A stretch of DNA of 64,000 bases, from assembly GCA_017302435.1 (NCBI GenBank), contig JAFLDL010000005.1, positions 62,001 through 126,000 of the forward strand, written 5' to 3'. The notes below the pieces were generated by a model. That model searched no databases. It had not been told where the DNA came from and saw nothing but the letters and a program-made list of their open reading frames with translations. Position 1 is the first letter of the stretch; each line of letters opens with the position of its first letter. A program made the translations under genes and the position numbers. Shown in pieces: positions 28,147 through 52,356 of the stretch. Source of the DNA: Candidatus Accumulibacter necessarius (lineage in GTDB: Bacteria; Pseudomonadota; Gammaproteobacteria; Burkholderiales; Rhodocyclaceae).

Positions 28147-28205
28147 GACAATCCTCACAGATCAGCTTGGCGCGGCATGACTGAACACGGGCAGGAGACG
28201 CGTTA

Positions 28206-28215
28206 TTTGCTTATT
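28206..28215 (+). promoter_or_regulatory. TTTGCTTATT element upstream of first DUF302/SoxY unit
   Basis: TTTGCTTATT followed by GGAAATAA (partial dyad TTAT-TGGAA-ATAA), about 107 bp before the truncated DUF302 frame. One of five occurrences of TTGCTTAT at sulfur-gene promoters in this window. A LysR-type operator is inferred. Confidence 0.5.
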
Positions 28216-28321
28216 GGAAATAAATCGTTTTCGTGGCTCTTCGTCGTCTGCATCATGCGTCTCTGGTGCGCCGGCTGCTGCAGGCTCGGAAAAGCCGGCA
28301 GGGCATGAGCGACAGAATGAA

Positions 28322-29607: not shown

Positions 29608-29775
29608 TCCATCTCGGCACCCCAGGGGAATCGGCGACCAAACATGCTGCGACATTAAACAGGAGGCAACCGCAAGCAAAGCAAGAATTTCTTCTAACCA
29701 TATTCCGCCAAAGCCGATTTTCCGCCGCCTTGGTTGCACCGTCTCAGCACCCGACGCGAGGCGCCGAAAGCGCTA

Positions 29776-29785
29776 TTTGCTTATT
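29776..29785 (+). promoter_or_regulatory. TTTGCTTATT element upstream of second DUF302/SoxY unit
   Basis: TTTGCTTATT followed by CCAAATTAATC, 114 bp before the intact DUF302 gene. It is the duplicated counterpart of the element at 28206. Confidence 0.5.
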
Positions 29786-29898
29786 CCAAATTAATCGTTT
29801 TCGAGGCTCTTCCCCGCCGGCATCATGCGTGGCGTGTCAGCCCGCTTCGGCAGGCTTGGAAAAGGGGAAGAGCATGAACGACAAAGTGACAGGGTGAG

Positions 29899-41090: not shown

Positions 41091-42112
41091 CACGCGTCCT
41101 TGCGCTTGAATTCTCGCTGCAACTTCTTCCATAACGGATCGCCAGGATTTTCCCTCGCCAACTGGTTCAGCACTTTTTCGTATACCCGCACGTCGATCGC
41201 GGCATCGAGATCCGGCTTGGTAGTAATGAACTCGCTGTTCACCATCACGTCGGCAAAATGCTTGACGCCCTTGACGTCGGGGTCGCTGGACTGGTCGAGA
41301 TACTGCGAGTAGTAGCCGCGCCACAGCAGCTGGCTGTCGATCCTGACGTAGCGGGCGATCGAATCGATGGTTTCCTTCTTGTTCTCGGCAGCGAACTTCT
41401 CGGCCTGCAGAATGGCACGCAGGAATTTCTCCCAGATAACCGGGTTCTTCAGGCTGGCCTCGGTGACCACCAGACGGCAGCAGGGATGACCGGGTTGCAG
41501 GTCGGTGGAGTGAATCACCACCTTCAAGCCCTGATCTTCGGCGCGCAGATCATGCGGCCCCCATACCAGCCCGGCGTCTACCTGGCCGGACTTGACTGCC
41601 TCGATCACTGCCGGTGGGTTCTTCAATTCGAAAATCTGGACGTCGGTTTTCCAATTGATGCCCTTATCCTTGAGGGTACCGCGCAGGACAGCATCCCCTG
41701 ACGCCATGCGTACAGTCGCGATCTTCTTGCCCCGGAGATCGGCCACACTGGCGATCTTTGCTGCATTCGCCGGGGTCGCGATCAGCGCGGCGTCGCCGCC
41801 CATGATGCCGCCGATGATCTTGATCTTCGCACCCTTGGCAATGTGCGCTACCGGTGCAGTGGTGCCGAAGGCGCCGATGTCGAGCTTGCCGGCAACGACG
41901 GCGTTGAGGCCGTCGGCGGAGTTCTGGAACTCGATCAGTTCGACATCCAGCCCTTCCCTGGCGAACAGGCCCTGCTCCTTGGCAACAAAGAACTTGGCGT
42001 GGCCGGTGACCGGCAGATAGCCGACTTTCAGCGTTTCGGCCGCGGCGTTGCCGAGCCCGGTTGCCAGGGCCAGAGCGGGTAGCAGGCAGCGCAGGGTTTT
42101 CAAATCGATCAT
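41090..42112 (-). CDS. ABC transporter substrate-binding protein, TauA/SsuA/NrtA-like
   Basis: 340 residues with a signal peptide (LPALALATGLGNAAA). VGYLPVTGHAKFFVAKEQGL, FQNSADGLNAVVAGKLDIG and AVKSGQVDAGLVWGPHDL are family features. CC in HPCCRLVV is unusual. It heads the minus-strand run of transporter, thioredoxin, SCO and CoA-transferase. A TTGCTTAT element lies 116 bp upstream on the same strand. The ligand is probably an organosulfur anion (inferred). Confidence 0.84.
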   Translation of the reverse strand: MIDLKTLRCLLPALALATGLGNAAAETLKVGYLPVTGHAKFFVAKEQGLFAREGLDVELIEFQNSADGLNAVVAGKLDIGAFGTTAPVAHIAKGAKIKIIGGIMGGDAALIATPANAAKIASVADLRGKKIATVRMASGDAVLRGTLKDKGINWKTDVQIFELKNPPAVIEAVKSGQVDAGLVWGPHDLRAEDQGLKVVIHSTDLQPGHPCCRLVVTEASLKNPVIWEKFLRAILQAEKFAAENKKETIDSIARYVRIDSQLLWRGYYSQYLDQSSDPDVKGVKHFADVMVNSEFITTKPDLDAAIDVRVYEKVLNQLARENPGDPLWKKLQREFKRKDA

Positions 42113-42227
42113 CGCGTTCTCCTGAGTGTGGGGAAATTCGAGAGCGGACTCTAGCGCGCCTGACAAGCGACAAGAACGACTGTTTCCTTCGTTACTTATA
42201 CCCACAGCTGATGAGTGCCATGCCGTT

Positions 42228-42235
42228 ATAAGCAA
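42228..42235 (-). promoter_or_regulatory. TTGCTTAT element between divergent transporter and rhodanese operons
   Basis: The minus-strand reading TTGCTTAT is identical to the core at four other sulfur-gene promoters. A related TTACTTAT lies 37 bp away in the opposite orientation. It lies in the 230-bp divergent promoter region. Confidence 0.5.
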
Positions 42236-42342
42236 CGCAGATTTTCTTCGTTCGCTGCCGCCGGTCCTGCGGCTAGAGTGCTGCTGCCCATACACCGACA
42301 CCATAACGATGACGGCCGGCTTTCCATTTCCAGGAGACTTTG

Positions 42343-42861
42343 ATGCTTGCCACCGCCCAACTCGACTTTGCCCCGATCGACACGGAATATGTCCCGGAGG
42401 ACGCCCCGCGCGCCACAGACCTGCACAGCATTCTCGCCGCAGCGACCGCTCGCGCCGCTCGCGAGAACCTGCCTTACGCCGGTACGGTTCCACCGCACGA
42501 CGCCTGGGTGTTGGCGGCGGCCGGCGCAGCCATTCTCATCGACGTGCGCACCACCGAAGAATACAAGTACGTCGGTCACGTGCCCGGCACGCCACTGGTG
42601 CAGTGGCAATTCGGGCCAGCCCTGACGAAGAATCCACGCTTCGCCCGTGAACTCGCAGGCAAGGCGGGCAAGAACGAAGTGATTCTCCTCATTTGCCGCA
42701 GCGGCAAGCGCTCGGCTGCGGCGGCTGAAGCCGCTACACGGGCCGGCTTTACTCGCGTATTCAATGTGCTCGAAGGCTTTGAGGGGGAACTCACCGCCGA
42801 CGGTCAGCGAGGCGCGACTGGTGGTTGGCGGTACCACGGCCTGCCCTGGATTCAGGACTGA
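42343..42861 (+). CDS. Rhodanese-domain sulfurtransferase
   Basis: 172 residues. An N-terminal helical region of ~60 residues precedes a single rhodanese domain with AILIDVRTTEEYKYVGHVPG and the active-site loop LICRSGKRSAAAAE, whose Cys forms the persulfide. The RBS AGGAGA precedes the ATG. It is first in a five-gene set with serine acetyltransferase, an XRE regulator, the encapsulin shell and the cysteine desulfurase. Rhodanese genes recur next to family 2A encapsulins, which suggests a role in moving sulfane sulfur to or from the compartment. Confidence 0.9.
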   Translation: MLATAQLDFAPIDTEYVPEDAPRATDLHSILAAATARAARENLPYAGTVPPHDAWVLAAAGAAILIDVRTTEEYKYVGHVPGTPLVQWQFGPALTKNPRFARELAGKAGKNEVILLICRSGKRSAAAAEAATRAGFTRVFNVLEGFEGELTADGQRGATGGWRYHGLPWIQD

Positions 42862-42882
42862 GTAGCCAGGAAGCGCCCGCCA

Positions 42883-43848
42883 ATGAACGCACCGCTTCTC
42901 TCCGCAGCCCCTCCATCGACCTCCGATCTCTGGGGTCTTGACGCTATCGTTCGCGATCTGCGCCTTGCCCGCGAGCGCTGGCGCCTGGCGCAGCATCGCA
43001 CACTCGAATCGGGCGGCCGTGAGTTTCCTTCCCGTGCAGCCCTGCGCGACATCGTCGAGAGACTGTGCGGCGTACTTTTCCCGATGCGCCTCGGTCCACC
43101 CGACCTGCAGCAGGGCCCCAGTGAGGATTTCTACATTGGGCATACACTCGACATTGCCCTGCGCAGTCTGCTTGACCAGGTTCGCCTGGAACTTGGTCAC
43201 GTTTCCCGCCACGACCCACTGAGTGATCCGGCGGTCGTCGAAAACGATGCCATCGCTGTTGTGCGGCAGTTTGCTGCTGACCTGCCGGGCATTCGCCTCG
43301 TGCTCGACAGCGACGTCGAGGCTGCCTACCGTGGCGATCCGGCCGCGCGCAGCGTCGATGAAATTGTGCTCTGCTATCCCGGAACGGTGGCCATCATCCA
43401 TCACCGCCTGGCGCACACGCTGTACCGGCTGGGTGTGCCGCTGCTGGCGCGGATCGTCTCCGAACTCGCTCATTCCGCCACCGGTATCGACATCCACCCC
43501 GGCGCACGCATCGGCGGCAGTTTCTTCATCGACCACGGTACCGGCGTCGTCATCGGCGAAACGGCAGTCATTGGCGAGCGAGTCCGCCTTTACCAAGCGG
43601 TCACCCTCGGTGCCAAGCGCTTCAGCGTCGACGCCGAGGGAGCCCTGGAGAAGGGCACGCCACGCCATCCGATCGTCGAGGATGATGTGGTGATCTACGC
43701 CGGGGCGACCATTCTCGGGCGCGTCACCATCGGCCGCGGCTCCTCGATCGGCGGCAACGTCTGGCTGACGCACAGCATCCCGCCAGGGAGCTTCCTTACC
43801 CAGGCCGTCTCCAGGAACGAAATGCTGGAAAGCGGTGGCGGGATATGA
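42883..43848 (+). CDS. Serine O-acetyltransferase (EpsC type)
   Basis: 321 residues. An N-terminal helical domain (~1-190) precedes a left-handed beta-helix with SATase signatures: IDIHPGARIGGSFFIDHGTG, VVIGETAVIGERVRLYQAVT, LGAKRF and IVEDDVVIYAGATILG. The long N-terminal part matches the EpsC group found beside family 2A encapsulins. The product O-acetylserine accepts sulfide to give cysteine, the desulfurase substrate. It overlaps the XRE gene by 4 bp. Confidence 0.9.
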   Translation: MNAPLLSAAPPSTSDLWGLDAIVRDLRLARERWRLAQHRTLESGGREFPSRAALRDIVERLCGVLFPMRLGPPDLQQGPSEDFYIGHTLDIALRSLLDQVRLELGHVSRHDPLSDPAVVENDAIAVVRQFAADLPGIRLVLDSDVEAAYRGDPAARSVDEIVLCYPGTVAIIHHRLAHTLYRLGVPLLARIVSELAHSATGIDIHPGARIGGSFFIDHGTGVVIGETAVIGERVRLYQAVTLGAKRFSVDAEGALEKGTPRHPIVEDDVVIYAGATILGRVTIGRGSSIGGNVWLTHSIPPGSFLTQAVSRNEMLESGGGI

Positions 43849-44066
43849 ATGGCCTCAACGAGCGCTTTCCCAGCATCGTCCGGCAGTTGCGCCATGAGCG
43901 CGGCTGGTCTCAGGAACGGCTGGCGGAGAGGGCCAACCTCAACCGCTCCTATGTTGGCGAGATCGAGCGCGGACTTGCCAGTCCTTCCCTGGTCACCGCC
44001 GACAAGCTGGCACGAGCGCTGGAGGTTGACCTCTCGGCTCTGGTCGCCCGTTGCGAGCATGGATAG
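43845..44066 (+). CDS. XRE-family transcriptional regulator
   Basis: 73 residues, a single Cro/C1-type helix-turn-helix: VRQLRHERGWSQERLAERAN then NRSYVGEIERGLASPSL. The start overlaps the serine acetyltransferase stop by 4 bp. With no ligand domain it is probably a local repressor or activator of the encapsulin operon, a role inferred from position. Confidence 0.88.
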   Translation: MNGLNERFPSIVRQLRHERGWSQERLAERANLNRSYVGEIERGLASPSLVTADKLARALEVDLSALVARCEHG

Positions 44067-44167
44067 CGCTCTCGCGAAGTCACCGCTATCGGCCATGGTG
44101 GTGGCTATAGCATGTTGAGCGGCCAGCCTCACCAAGAGTAAGGTTTTGCTTTTGGGCAAAAAAGTAA

Positions 44168-44177
44168 TTTGCTTATT
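44168..44177 (+). promoter_or_regulatory. TTTGCTTATT element upstream of encapsulin gene
   Basis: TTTGCTTATTCG followed by TCTTTCTTATAA, 42 bp before the encapsulin start. It is the same element as at other sulfur promoters, and shows the shell gene has its own promoter region. Confidence 0.5.
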
Positions 44178-44218
44178 CGTCTTTCTTATAACCACGTCAC
44201 AATTGCAAGGAGTACCCC

Positions 44219-45145
44219 ATGGCAGATAGTCCTCACCAAGCCGCCCTGAGCGATGTCGCCGCACGGCAACTGGCCAACGCCACCAAGACCGTCGCGCAGC
44301 TCTCGACCATTTCCCCGCGCTGGCTGACGCACCTGCTGCAATGGCTGCCCGTGGAAGCCGGCATCTATCGCCTGAACCAGGTCAGGAACCCGCGTGACGT
44401 GCAGGTCGCGTGTGCCAAGCGCGACGAGTCCGAACTGCCGCAGACCTTCGTCGACTACGAAGAAAAGCCGCGCGAGTACTTCCTCAGCGCCGTCACCACC
44501 GTCCTCGACGTTCACACCCGTATTTCCGACCTGTACAGCAGCCCGCACGACCAGATCAAGGAACAACTGCGGCTGACCATCGAGACGATCAAGGAGAGGC
44601 AGGAAAACGAGCTGATCAACAACGGCGACTATGGCCTGTTGGCCAACGTCGCTGACAACCAGCGCATCACGACGCTGAGCGGTGCGCCGACCCCGGATGA
44701 CCTTGATGACTTGCTGACCAAGGTCTGGAAGGAACCCGCCTTTTTCCTCACCCACCCGTTGGCGATCGCCGCTTTTGGCCGCGAGTGCACCCGCCGCGGC
44801 GTTCCGCCACCCACCGTTTCGCTGTTCGGCTCCCAGTTCGTGACCTGGCGCGGCATTCCGCTGATCCCGTCGGACAAGGTGCGGGTCGAGGAGGGCAAGA
44901 CCAAGATCCTGCTCCTGCGTGTCGGCGACAAGCGCCAGGGGGTCGTCGGCCTCTATCAGCCGGGCCTGCCGGGTGAACAAAGCCCCGGCCTGTCGGTGCG
45001 CTTCATGGGCATCGACCGCAATGCCATCGCTTCCTATCTGATTTCGCTCTATTGCTCACTGGCTGTCCATGCGGAAGACGCACTGGCCGTACTCGATGAC
45101 GTGGAGATCGACAAATACCATGACTATGCTGACACCTATCGCTGA
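44219..45145 (+). CDS. Family 2A encapsulin shell protein (SrpI-like)
   Basis: 308 residues, the normal family 2A size. Features are the N-terminal arm (QLANATKTVAQLSTISPRWL), the E-loop region QENELINNGDYGLLANVADN and the HK97-fold C-terminal segments SVRFMGIDRNAIASYLISLY and DDVEIDKYHDYADTYR. Shell proteins of this group assemble into T=1 compartments of 60 subunits that enclose a cysteine desulfurase. The cargo gene starts inside the last codons (26-bp overlap). The RBS AAGGAG is strong. In other bacteria this system is sulfur-starvation induced and stores elemental sulfur. Confidence 0.93.
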   Translation: MADSPHQAALSDVAARQLANATKTVAQLSTISPRWLTHLLQWLPVEAGIYRLNQVRNPRDVQVACAKRDESELPQTFVDYEEKPREYFLSAVTTVLDVHTRISDLYSSPHDQIKEQLRLTIETIKERQENELINNGDYGLLANVADNQRITTLSGAPTPDDLDDLLTKVWKEPAFFLTHPLAIAAFGRECTRRGVPPPTVSLFGSQFVTWRGIPLIPSDKVRVEEGKTKILLLRVGDKRQGVVGLYQPGLPGEQSPGLSVRFMGIDRNAIASYLISLYCSLAVHAEDALAVLDDVEIDKYHDYADTYR

Positions 45146-46946
45146 TTCGCCGGCCGGCGCACTGCCCTTCAGCCTCGCAGCCATTCCGGGCCTGCCGGAC
45201 GAAACGGCACTTGCCCGCCTGGCTGGGGAGTTGTTCCGGGCACTGCCGGGAAGCGAGGCGCCTTCTTCGCCATCGGCACCAGGGGTCAGCGGCCTGGCGA
45301 TCGGCGAGCCGGGGCCGGCATTGCAGCCGGTTGCCGCGCCATCGGTCGGCCAGGCGCCGGTCGCCGCAGGGCCAGTTGCTCCGGAGTTCGGGGTGCCCGA
45401 AGCCTATGCCGCCGCCTTGCCGATGACCGCCCCGATCAGCGCCCCCGCGGGTGTCCCGGGATCGCCGTACTACTTCCTCGGCGAAGCAACGGCGCTGTCG
45501 TCTGCCCACCAGGCACCGACACCAGTCGCTGACAATCACGTCGTTGCCCATCCCTTCGAACTGCCGGGTGAGGTCGCCCTGCGCCGCGTGCTCGATGAAA
45601 TCGCCGGCGAACGCTCGCTGCCGGCGGCAGCGCCGCTGCCAGCGCCCGGCCACAGCGGCTACTACTTCCTCGACCAGCCGGCGTCGGTTCCACGGGCCGA
45701 TGCCGCCCGCTTCCCGGCCTTCGACGTGCAGGCCGTACGCCGCGACTTCCCCATCCTCGCCGAGCGCGTCAATGGCAAGCCGCTGGTCTGGTTCGACAAT
45801 GCGGCGACGACGCAAAAGCCGCAGGCGGTCATCGATCGCCTGGTGCAGTTCTACCAGCACGAGAACTCCAACATTCACCGTGCCGCCCACGAACTGGCGG
45901 CACGTTCCACCGACGCCTACGAAGCCGCCCGCAGCAAGGTGGCGCGCTTTCTCGGCGCAAGTTCCGCCGAGGAGATCATTTTCGTTCGCGGCGCGACCGA
46001 AGCGATCAACCTGGTAGCCAAGACCTGGGGCAAGCAGAACATCGGCGAAGGTGACGAGATCGTCGTTTCGCTGCTCGAACACCACGCCAACATCGTTCCC
46101 TGGCAGCAATTGGCGAAGGAGAACGGCGCCCACATTCGGGTCATCCCGGTCGATGACAAGGGCCAGATCCTGCTCCAGGAATACCAGCGGTTACTCAACG
46201 ACCGCACGAAGCTGGTGGCAGTCAGCCAGGTCTCCAATGCCCTGGGCACCGTGACGCCGGTGAAGGAAATCGTCGAGCTGGCTCACCGGGCGGGTGCCAG
46301 GGTGCTGGTGGACGGTGCCCAGTCGGTATCGCACATGCGCGTCAACGTGCAGGCGATCGACGCCGACTTCTTCGTCTTCTCCGGCCACAAGGTCTTTGCG
46401 CCGACCGGCATCGGCGTTGTCTACGGCAAGCGCGATATTCTCGAGGACATGCCACCCTGGCAAGGTGGCGGCAACATGATTGCCGACGTCACCTTCGAGC
46501 GGACCCTCTACCAGGGCGTGCCGGCTCGCTTCGAGGCCGGCACCGGCAACATTGCCGATGCCGTTGGCCTCGGCGCCGCGATCGATTATGTGGAGCGGAT
46601 CGGTATCGAGAATATTTCCCGCTACGAGCATGATCTCCTCGCCTATGCCACGCAGAGGGTCCAGCCGATCCCCGGCATTCGCCTGATCGGCACCGCCGAC
46701 GACAAGGCCAGCGTGCTGTCCTTCGTCCTCGCCGGTTACCGCCCGGAAGAGGTCGGGGCGGCGCTGAATGAAGAAGGCATTGCCGTGCGCGCCGGCCACC
46801 ATTGTGCCCAACCGATCCTGCGCCGCTTCGGTGTCGAAGCCACGGTGCGCCCGTCGCTGGCGTTCTACAATACCTGCGCCGAAGTGGATCTGCTGGTCTC
46901 GGTACTGCAGCGCCTGGCGAGAGGAAAAGGCAGGGCTGTGGGCTAG
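45120..46946 (+). CDS. Cysteine desulfurase (SufS type) with N-terminal encapsulin-targeting arm
   Basis: 608 residues. Residues 1-~199 are low-complexity, Pro/Ala-rich and probably disordered, with short conserved islands (ALARLAGELFRALPG, GSPYYFLGEA, GHSGYYFLDQ) typical of family 2A cargo-loading domains. Residues ~200-608 are a type II cysteine desulfurase: FDNAATTQKP, PLP lysine in FSGHKVFAPTGIG (about Lys424) and active Cys in RAGHHCAQP (about Cys562). It removes sulfur from cysteine inside the shell. ATG 45120 overlaps the shell gene; ATG 45126 is an alternative. Confidence 0.93.
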   Translation: MTMLTPIADSPAGALPFSLAAIPGLPDETALARLAGELFRALPGSEAPSSPSAPGVSGLAIGEPGPALQPVAAPSVGQAPVAAGPVAPEFGVPEAYAAALPMTAPISAPAGVPGSPYYFLGEATALSSAHQAPTPVADNHVVAHPFELPGEVALRRVLDEIAGERSLPAAAPLPAPGHSGYYFLDQPASVPRADAARFPAFDVQAVRRDFPILAERVNGKPLVWFDNAATTQKPQAVIDRLVQFYQHENSNIHRAAHELAARSTDAYEAARSKVARFLGASSAEEIIFVRGATEAINLVAKTWGKQNIGEGDEIVVSLLEHHANIVPWQQLAKENGAHIRVIPVDDKGQILLQEYQRLLNDRTKLVAVSQVSNALGTVTPVKEIVELAHRAGARVLVDGAQSVSHMRVNVQAIDADFFVFSGHKVFAPTGIGVVYGKRDILEDMPPWQGGGNMIADVTFERTLYQGVPARFEAGTGNIADAVGLGAAIDYVERIGIENISRYEHDLLAYATQRVQPIPGIRLIGTADDKASVLSFVLAGYRPEEVGAALNEEGIAVRAGHHCAQPILRRFGVEATVRPSLAFYNTCAEVDLLVSVLQRLARGKGRAVG

Positions 46947-47070: not shown

Positions 47071-48276
47071 TCAGGTTGGGCCGTGGCCGATGCGCTGCAG
47101 CGCGCCGGCAAGATCGCGCCTGAGATCTTCCACCTCCTCAATGCCGACCGACAGACGCAGCAGGGAATCGCCGATGCCCAGGCGGGCGCGTTGTTCCGGC
47201 GGGATGGTGGCGTGGGTCATGATCGCCGGATGCTCGATCAGACTCTCAACGCCGCCCAGGCTCTCCGCCAGGGTGAAGAGTTCACAGCCGTGCAGGAAGC
47301 GCTTCGTGCCGGCCAGATCGGTCGCCAGTTCGACGGCGATCATGCCGCCGAAGCCACGCATCTGTCGCTGTGCCAGCGCATGCTGCGGATGCGAGGCGAG
47401 GCCGGGGTAGGTGACCCGCCGGATTTCTGGCTGCACTTCCAGCCAGGCGGCGAGTTCCTGCGCATTCTCGCAGTGTCTTTGCATACGCACGTTGAGGGTT
47501 TTGACGCCGCGCAGCGCAAGGTAGCTGTCGAAAGGGCCGGCAATGGCACCGACGGCGTTGTGCAGGAACTGGAGTCGTTCGAGATGTTCGGCGTTGCGTT
47601 CGTCGCCGCTGACCACGGCGATGCCGCCGATCACGTCCGAGTGGCCGTTGAGATACTTGGTACTCGAATGGACGACGATGTCGAAGCCGAGTTCCAGCGG
47701 CCGCTGTATCCACGGGCTGGCGAGCGTGTTGTCGGCCACCGCGAGCAGGCCGTGCTGGTGGGCGAGGGTGGCAAGTGCCTGCAGGTCCACCAGGCGCAGC
47801 AGCGGATTGGTCGGCGTTTCCACCAGCAGCATGCGACTTTCGGGACGGATCGCAGCGACCAGCGCCACCGGATCGGAGAGATCGACAAAGCTGCAGGAGA
47901 GCGCCGCACTGCGCTTCCTTACCCCCTCGAGCAGGCGGTAGGTACCGCCATAGAGATCGTCGCCGGCAACCACGTGCGCTCCGCTATCGAGCAGTTCGAG
48001 GACGGTGGCGATGGCGGCCAGCCCGGAGGCAAAGGCAAAGGCGGCGCCACCGCTCTCAAGGTCGGCCACACAGCGCTCCAATGCCCAGCGCGTCGGATTG
48101 TGCGAGCGACCATAGTCCAGCCCCTTATGTACCCCAGGACTTTCCTGGACGTAGGTCGAGTTGGCATAGATCGGGGGCATGACCGCACCAGTGGAAGGAT
48201 CTGGACTTTGTCCGGCGTGGATGACACGGGTGCCGAAGCCGGGGCGGGAAGCGTTCTTGTCGTAGTGGTCGGTCAT
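47071..48276 (-). CDS. Cystathionine gamma-lyase/gamma-synthase family PLP enzyme
   Basis: 401 residues, Cys/Met metabolism PLP family. GTRVIHAGQSPDPSTGAVMP, YGRSHNPTR, VETPTNPLL and the PLP lysine in HSSTKYLNGHSDVIGG are seen. Methionine gamma-lyase, cystathionine gamma-lyase (MccB) and gamma-synthase (MetB) cannot be separated by eye. A cystathionine beta-synthase remnant upstream suggests the original role was reverse transsulfuration. The ATG at 48276 gives the canonical N-terminus. Confidence 0.88.
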   Translation of the reverse strand: MTDHYDKNASRPGFGTRVIHAGQSPDPSTGAVMPPIYANSTYVQESPGVHKGLDYGRSHNPTRWALERCVADLESGGAAFAFASGLAAIATVLELLDSGAHVVAGDDLYGGTYRLLEGVRKRSAALSCSFVDLSDPVALVAAIRPESRMLLVETPTNPLLRLVDLQALATLAHQHGLLAVADNTLASPWIQRPLELGFDIVVHSSTKYLNGHSDVIGGIAVVSGDERNAEHLERLQFLHNAVGAIAGPFDSYLALRGVKTLNVRMQRHCENAQELAAWLEVQPEIRRVTYPGLASHPQHALAQRQMRGFGGMIAVELATDLAGTKRFLHGCELFTLAESLGGVESLIEHPAIMTHATIPPEQRARLGIGDSLLRLSVGIEEVEDLRRDLAGALQRIGHGPT

Positions 48277-48316
48277 CCAAACTTCTTTCGCAGGTGATTG
48301 ATCAGGTCGAAGCGGG

Positions 48317-48590
48317 TCACGAAGTGTACATCTTCGACAGGTAGCGGGTCCCGGTGTCGCAAACAAACGAGACGACCCGCTTCGGCGCCGTCTGCTCGCG
48401 ACAGTAACGGAGTACAGCCGCCACCAGGGTGCCGGTTGAGGAGCCTCCAAGCAGGCCTTTGGCCCGCAACAGATTGCGCGCCGTGTCGAAGCTTTCCTGG
48501 TCGCTGATCGCCGGACATCTTGTCCGGCACCACCATCAACGGCGTGTTGCCGATCAGGTCGAGAACCGCAGGCCGGAGAAGACGTGGCAT
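48317..48590 (-). pseudogene. Cystathionine beta-synthase remnant, large internal deletion
   Basis: From ATG 48590 the first ~17 residues (PAVLDLIGNTPLMVV) are the start of a CBS/cysteine synthase. After a junction near 48510-48530 another frame gives the end of its catalytic domain: SFDTARNLLRAKGLLGGSST, LVAAVLRYCREQTAPKRV and VCDTGTRYLSKMYTS, stopping at 48317. Roughly 280 central residues, including the PLP lysine, and any CBS domains are gone. It sits directly upstream of the cystathionine gamma-lyase-like gene, the usual partner. Confidence 0.8.
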
Positions 48591-48626
48591 GCCCGGACCC
48601 CTACAGCTCATGGCAGGCCGGCGGCA

Positions 48627-51395: not shown

Positions 51396-52356
51396 ATGAA
51401 ACGACAGTTCCTGAAAGCCATCCTCGGCGTCGCCGCCGGGCTCGCCATTGCTGCCGTCTGGCAACCGGCCTTCGCCGAATACAACCCGAAACTCGTGCGC
51501 ATCGGCTTCCAGAAGTCCGCCAGCCTGCTGACCCTGCTGAAGGCCCAGGGGGCGGTGGAAAAGCGCCTGGCGGCGCAGGGCCTGGAGGTGAAGTGGGGTC
51601 GAGTTTCCCGCCGGGCCACAATTGCTGGAGGGCCTCAACGTCGGTGCCATCGACTTCGGCTATGTCGGGGAGGCGCCGCCAGTCTTTGCGCAGGCGGCCG
51701 GCGCCAACTTCGTTTATGTCGGTTACGAGGAACCCGCCCCGACCGCCGAAGCGGTGCTCGTCCCCAAGGGGTCGGCGATCAAGACCGTGGCTGACCTCAA
51801 GGGCAAAAAGGTGGCACTCAACAAGGGCTCCAACGTCCATTACCTGCTGGTAAAGTTACTGGAGAGGAGCGGTTTGAAGTATGCCGACATACAGCCGGTA
51901 TTCCTGCCGCCTGCGGATGCCCGGGCCGCCTTCGAGCGTGGTAGCGTTGACGCCTGGGTGATCTGGGACCCCTACACGGCCGCCGCCGAGAAGCAGATCG
52001 AGGCGCGCATCTTGGCCGACGGCAAGGGTGTGGTGAACAACTACGCCTTCTTCCTTGCTGAGCGCGAGTTCGCCAGCAAACGGCCCGAAGTCATCAGTCT
52101 GCTCTTCGATGAACTGCAGAAGCAGGGCCAGTGGATCATCAGGAACTACCCGGCGGCGGCGGCTCAGCTTGCCCCCTTGCAGGGCCTCGACCCCGTCGTG
52201 GTCGAGCTGAGCATCCTTCGTTACAGCAATGTCGTGAAGCCAATCACCGATCAGGTACTGGCCGAGCAACAGAAGCTTGCCGACACCTTCTCCGAACTCA
52301 AGCTGATCCCGAAGGAGATCAAGGTCAAGGATGCGTCGCTGCCGGGCAAGCGCTGA
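51396..52356 (+). pseudogene. ssuA: Sulfonate-binding protein SsuA, frameshifted in a G-run
   Basis: The first part from ATG 51396 has a signal peptide (AILGVAAGLAIAAVWQPAFA) and LVRIGFQKSASLLTLLKAQG. It breaks at GLEVKW where the run GGGG (51596-51599) holds one base too many. Removing one G restores VEFPAGPQLLEGLNVGAIDF, and the second frame continues to 52356 (SVDAWVIWDPYTAAAE, then IPKEIKVKDASLPGKR). Otherwise full length for SsuA (~319 residues). Either a real lesion, a slippage-prone switch or a sequencing error. Confidence 0.82.

Follow-up and report, generated by a model that had tools for sequence, protein, structure and literature searches.

The window analysed here, a 64,000-nucleotide stretch of the genome of Candidatus Accumulibacter necessarius, carries on one strand five collinear genes for a rhodanese, a serine O-acetyltransferase (SAT), a small XRE-type regulator, an encapsulin shell protein and a cysteine desulfurase (Table 1). 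Judged by its genes, the compartment they encode is an ordinary family 2A encapsulin system, of a kind already known. What the analysis adds is a regulatory picture, consisting of a promoter upstream of the rhodanese gene (P1) that appears to be part of a wider regulon and a promoter upstream of the shell gene (P2) with an element coupled to the XRE gene. It is probable that this sulfur compartment is under two-step control, P1 acting first and an XRE-driven P2 second.

Evidence for the second step comes from comparison with related loci. The relatives are the best 80 of 564 confirmed loci; all have at least 82% shell identity, so that the sample is biased towards near kin, and the window is excluded from it. 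A 21-bp element, TTGaTGGCTATAGCatGTTGA, which precedes the shell gene by about 100 nt, scores above 8 in 48 of 80 upstream regions, the window included. In the host genome this is the sole match at up to 3 mismatches. Among loci with at least 300 nt of upstream sequence, again counting the window, 51 have both XRE and the element, 39 have neither, 2 have XRE alone and 2 the element alone; put differently, the element accompanies XRE in 51 of 53 loci and is found in 2 of the 41 loci lacking it. These counts show the presence of the regulator gene and that of the element to be coupled, as far as comparison of sequences can tell. A motif search of 150 genomes from the order, allowing at most 1 mismatch, returned 87 matches, most of them by chance (a backward control pattern gave more), of which 4 stand at the encapsulin position, positions being compared by eye.

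The 3' end of the element forms a -35-like TTGA, and a GAnAnT sequence follows 17 nt past that hexamer (G, A, A and T in 40, 37, 40 and 39 of 49 aligned sites). The palindrome GCTATAGC has its centre near -43 from the predicted start, where class II activators typically sit. XRE is presumed to be an activator of P2, a direction of control that we infer. A tentative case can be made for the opposite sign, with XRE repressing P2 until relieved by a separate signal, inasmuch as the element overlaps the -35 box and a bound protein could block polymerase; however, the position of the palindrome is that of a class II activator, and the element is lost along with XRE, whereas a promoter under repression should presumably persist. 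With XRE as activator, the chances seem about even that in a large beta-proteobacterial branch of family 2A regulator and element are gained and lost together, and that an activator made along with SAT and rhodanese from a sulfur-limitation promoter drives a separate promoter of shell and cargo, providing feed-forward delay and amplification of shell synthesis.

The first promoter emerged from an expectation-maximization search upstream of the rhodanese genes, which yielded a 28-nt AT-rich motif scoring above 8 in 64 of 75 regions, that of the window included (log-likelihood 739, against 93 in shuffles). A TAnnnT sequence stands at +48 from the motif, with T, A and T in 60, 62 and 62 of the 64 aligned sites. 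The resulting profile has 8 sites above 12 in the window, as compared to 0.0 per replicate in shuffled windows (10 replicates, one strand). Five of these precede the encapsulin operon (whose own site was among the training sequences of the profile), metY, tauD, xsc and ssuA, all with TAnnnT exactly at +48. Outside the window, in stretches chosen for CysB, CysK, SAT or pattern matches and hence no random sample, the box and TAnnnT at +48 are found before sbp-cysTWA on contig 34 (18.8, TAAACT) and before genes for TauE, a sulfite/nitrite-reductase-like protein and CysD on contig 19 (16.9, TACCAT), the latter placement assuming that TauE starts later than its longest frame. The tauABC genes of contig 27 have a box that scores high (22.7), although its -10 is displaced by one, and a Sulf_transp gene has a weaker box (11.2, CAGTCT at +48). 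On contigs 34 and 19 the genome encodes two CysB-family regulators, which score 488 and 478 bits (cut-off 402); cysA adjoins one of the two genes. Sulfate-assimilation genes of this kind are CysB targets. Since its arrangement is common to genes of sulfate uptake and reduction, P1 looks like a member of a CysB-type sulfur-limitation regulon, with CysB as the putative regulator.

Some further sites resembling P1 may be recorded. The ssuA-type genes and the encapsulin operon diverge from a common 233-nt gap (42110-42342), each with a P1-type box, an arrangement that may couple them. On contig 34 (L125:8774-8801, minus strand) a P1-type box (12.3) with TAGACT at +48 precedes an unidentified reading frame. 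Within the window, the SoxY region and a DUF302 gene are preceded by promoter-like stretches that resemble each other (28203-28300 and 29773-29870; TTTGCTTATTnnAAAT...ATCGTTTTCG), perhaps through duplication. The possibility that the shell gene has a P1-type box of its own in the 100 nt next to its start was considered and rejected as too weak, such a box occurring in 9 of 79 loci and in 3 when sequences were shuffled.

Because the operon has its P1 arrangement in common with sulfate uptake and reduction genes, the promoter evidence favours use of the compartment in sulfur starvation over catabolic buffering. The preliminary description of this DNA had suggested, from the position of the locus in a sulfonate and sulfide oxidation island, that the compartment may buffer sulfane sulfur from catabolism as well as serve in starvation. 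The sulfur island on which this rested was recovered: genes for SoxY, SoxZ, an FCSD-type flavoprotein, SsuA-type and other sulfonate transport, MetX, MetY, TauD and Xsc surround the operon, and the P1 arrangement found at xsc and tauD speaks for the proposal. The same arrangement before the assimilatory sbp-cysTWA and sulfite reductase/cysD genes weakens it. Of the three remaining P1-like sites of the window, all in the Sox region, those at 28203 and 29773 have no -10, and that at 29678 (minus strand, TAATGT) lies inside a doubtful reading frame with no clear gene. In the relatives, these neighbours were sought up to 9 kb from the shell gene, a distance that some contigs do not reach. No SsuA of at least 40% identity was found in any of the 80 (13 weaker matches, 23-31%), MetX (at least 50%) was found in 3, a gamma-synthase family gene (at least 60%) in 2, and MetY (at least 45%) in 13, where it is 48-93% identical and lies as close as this, as it does in the window. 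The sulfonate part of the neighbourhood is thus apparently not common to the relatives, given the SsuA count, while a MetY homologue recurs. Of the neighbours in the window, this search covered only SsuA, MetX, MetY and the gamma-synthase family gene, and relatives may have a conserved link to Sox, FCSD or Xsc. On balance, buffering of catabolic sulfur as the main role appears improbable. Within the same neighbourhood, an SsuA-family sulfonate-binding gene (51396-52356, plus strand) is split over two frames, its start in one and the remainder in the other, through decay or sequencing error.

Several observations weigh against two-step control. Concerning P1, cysK on contig 27 has a weak P1-like site (9.8, TATGGT); three P1-type sites on that contig (12.2, 13.3 and 14.7) have no assigned gene; the examined stretches of contigs 24 (cysE/iscS), 21 and 25 contain no P1 site above 12; and the pattern search was built on sites from within the window, giving 13 matches against 5 for the control. 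Concerning P2, the -10 of the window is poor, with GTAAGG in place of the GAnAnT seen in most relatives, and this argues against a strong P2 here. There are four exceptions to the XRE rule: L015 and L039 have XRE without the element, while in L053 and L069 the element stands without XRE. Because the 80 relatives served to train the element profile, the only outside test is a held-out set of 14 loci from 13 other genomes, whose shell genes have no 200-nt stretch in common with those of the 80; in these, the element is present in 4 of 4 loci with XRE and in 0 of 10 without. Finally, a tree of the shell protein leaves just 4 supported independent pairs (p 0.125), whereas a joined tree of three proteins from 89 loci gives 10, in which the element on average goes the same way as XRE in 8.9, shows no difference in 1.1 and is opposite in 0.0, the sign test giving a median p of 0.0039. 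That the element is a mere core promoter, linked to XRE through shared ancestry, is very unlikely: its -35-like TTGA and the few pairs of the shell-only tree would fit, but the absence of opposite pairs in the three-protein tree and the clean split of the held-out loci do not, and we know of no usual sigma-70 feature that resembles the palindrome. The two exceptional loci L053 and L069, both from Rubrivivax, have the element before the shell gene with no XRE, rhodanese or SAT match alongside; their XRE may lie elsewhere.

Two-step control would operate as follows. Upon sulfur shortage, a CysB-type LysR protein would activate sulfonate genes as well as those of sulfate uptake and reduction, and with them P1, from which rhodanese, SAT and XRE would be made. 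SAT would supply O-acetylserine to cysteine synthase (CysK, contig 27) and could also reinforce P1, since N-acetylserine, an isomer of O-acetylserine, is the inducer of CysB in enteric bacteria. In the second step, XRE would bind the GGCTATAGC element, immediately ahead of the P2 -35, increasing transcription of the shell and desulfurase genes. In the third, the N-terminal arm of the desulfurase would load the enzyme into the shell, where incoming cysteine would be converted to alanine and sulfane sulfur; loading and sulfane sulfur release are known for relatives, and we infer them here. As no SufE or SufB/D was found in the genome, the sulfane sulfur would be either kept inside the shell or handed to the rhodanese.

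Table 1. Genes and promoter elements of the encapsulin locus (window coordinates).
Feature	Position	Strand	Evidence
Rhodanese, single-domain	42343..42861	+	PF00581, 50 bits; active-site loop CRSGKRS
Serine O-acetyltransferase (SAT; EpsC/CysE type)	42883..43848	+	NF041874, 168 bits (cut-off 150)
XRE (HTH_3) regulator, 73 aa	43845..44066	+	PF01381, 58 bits
Family 2A encapsulin shell, 308 aa	44219..45145	+	NF041162, 542 bits (cut-off 380); PF19307, 352 bits; PDB relatives
Cargo cysteine desulfurase, 608 aa, arm approximately residues 1-195	45120..46946	+	NF041166, 906 bits (cut-off 800); arm motifs
P1 box, AT-rich, putative CysB-type	42226..42253	+	EM (expectation-maximization) motif upstream of rhodanese genes
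P1 -10 element TAGAGT	42274..42279	+	TAnnnT at fixed offset +48
P2 element GTGGTGGCTATAGCATGTTGA, presumed XRE operator, overlapping -35 TTGA	44098..44118	+	Motif and XRE co-occurrence

All five genes lie where the preliminary description had placed them, separated in gene order by a 21-nt gap, a 4-nt overlap (SAT/XRE), a 152-nt gap and a 26-nt overlap (shell/desulfurase); the length of the desulfurase is counted from an ATG inside the latter. Synteny is extensive: within 9 kb and with orientation conserved, a rhodanese gene is found beside the shell gene in 74 of the 80 relatives, SAT in 70, XRE in 48 and the desulfurase in 77, and in the three without desulfurase (L008, L023 and L081) the sequence ends less than 250 nt past the shell match. 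In view of the profile scores and this synteny, a chance assembly of the five genes can be excluded. One relative, L051, a metagenome-assembled genome (MAG) titled Verrucomicrobiaceae, has an operon of beta-proteobacterial type (shell 83%, SAT 74%), reflecting contamination or transfer. Among 150 genomes of the order, that of the window counted, 14 have a family 2A shell gene, and XRE stands beside 5 of 15 shell genes in an evenly drawn sample of the order that includes the window. The host genome has one such shell gene, whose closest relative among those listed is that of the MAG Candidatus Accumulibacter iunctus (L002; 96% identity).

Assignment of the shell to family 2A, anticipated in the preliminary description, is borne out by the profile search of its gene, the product exceeding the NF041162 cut-off. 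PF19307 is its sole Pfam match, the cNMP (cyclic nucleotide)-binding domain being absent, as in family 2A. The protein also passes the threshold of the 2B model (422 bits, cut-off 400), with a best stretch covering 240 of 450 positions. A sequence search of solved structures gave as top matches 8t6r (566 bits), presumably from Acinetobacter baumannii, and 6x8m, which is SrpI (513 bits). Residues F262 and Y273, reported to lie near cargo density in SrpI (PMC8049743), are both present in the window shell.

The desulfurase adjoins the shell gene, and its long N-terminal arm, likewise anticipated, measures about 195 residues ahead of the SufS domain; the catalytic domain has 8kg1 as its best structure match (658 bits). 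Two arm motifs were published for the SrpI cargo, LARLANEFFS and AASPYYFLDG, with the arm required for loading (PMC8049743). The window arm has forms of both, LARLAGELF and, with two copies of YYFL, SPYYFLG and GYYFLD. Among 78 arms, including that of the window, 76 contain a YYFL-type motif, 50 at least two copies of it, and 41 the strict LARLA pattern. SUF Fe-S assembly involves SufE and SufB/D alongside SufS; no match to SufE (PF02657) or SufB/D (PF01458) was obtained in the host genome (88 contigs, completeness given as 100%; controls positive in 5 and 14 of 14), SufU not being searched for. Since these matches are lacking, this desulfurase is unlikely to serve a normal SUF system; the obvious local sulfur acceptor would be the rhodanese. 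The genome has 4 Aminotran_5 genes in all at E 1e-10, that of the window included. Encapsulated desulfurases have been linked to sulfur storage (PMC12407261), and a rhodanese outside the shell has been put forward as acceptor (PMC8346489). The rhodanese loop reads CRSGKRS in 73 of 74 relatives and CRSGNRS in 1.

The preliminary description had also inferred a local cycle from O-acetylserine to cysteine to stored sulfur. As the operon contains no cysteine synthase gene, this cycle would be incomplete here. The idea gains some support from the relatives, where cysK lies directly upstream of SAT in 16 of the 80, as well as in both loci of 1 of the 13 held-out genomes. It also gains support from CysK of contig 27, which is 83.5% identical to the operon-encoded CysK of one such relative (L013), as compared to 44% and 25% for the cysteine synthases on contigs 21 and 18. 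The genome has 2 SAT genes in all at E 1e-10, that of the window and one on contig 24. Downstream of the operon, between a gamma-synthase family gene and metX, a remnant resembling cystathionine beta-synthase (CBS) or cysteine synthase occupies 48273-48600 on the minus strand; it was rejected as a working enzyme, since only pieces of the domain start and end are present, in different frames. At the corresponding place L002 has a C-terminal-like piece alone, beside a run of N. Also rejected was the C-terminal GGGI tail of SAT as a conserved cysteine synthase contact, a GxGI end occurring in just 5 of 70 relatives.

Among the closest known systems is SrpI/CyD of Synechococcus elongatus PCC 7942, which has the same shell family, a link to sulfate starvation and a SufS-type cargo with a disordered arm bearing the same two motifs (PMC8049743). 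In contrast to it, the operon of the window also includes the genes for rhodanese, SAT and XRE and is preceded by a CysB-type box. For the cyanobacterial system a regulator named CysR appears in the title of a reference. A survey counting 1281 family 2A desulfurase operons lists SAT and rhodanese as the most enriched accessory genes; XRE does not occur in its main text, although the supplementary gene tables may include it (PMC8346489). The 8t6r and 6x8m shells and the 8kg1 desulfurase, being sequence matches of the window proteins, carry no promoter information. A search of the open-licence PMC literature for family 2A operons with a CysB box or under the control of XRE gave a single paper combining encapsulin, XRE and regulator, which keeps them in separate sections (PMC8987985).

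Promoters held in common with sulfate assimilation genes make a direct genetic prediction about the role of the compartment. The XRE regulator and its unique site would offer a handle for switching the compartment on or off in cultivable relatives, and the Dechloromonas-type operons with cysK are the most complete versions seen for testing the cysteine cycle. If true, the feed-forward circuit would delay and amplify production of the 60-subunit shell until cysteine synthesis has gone up.

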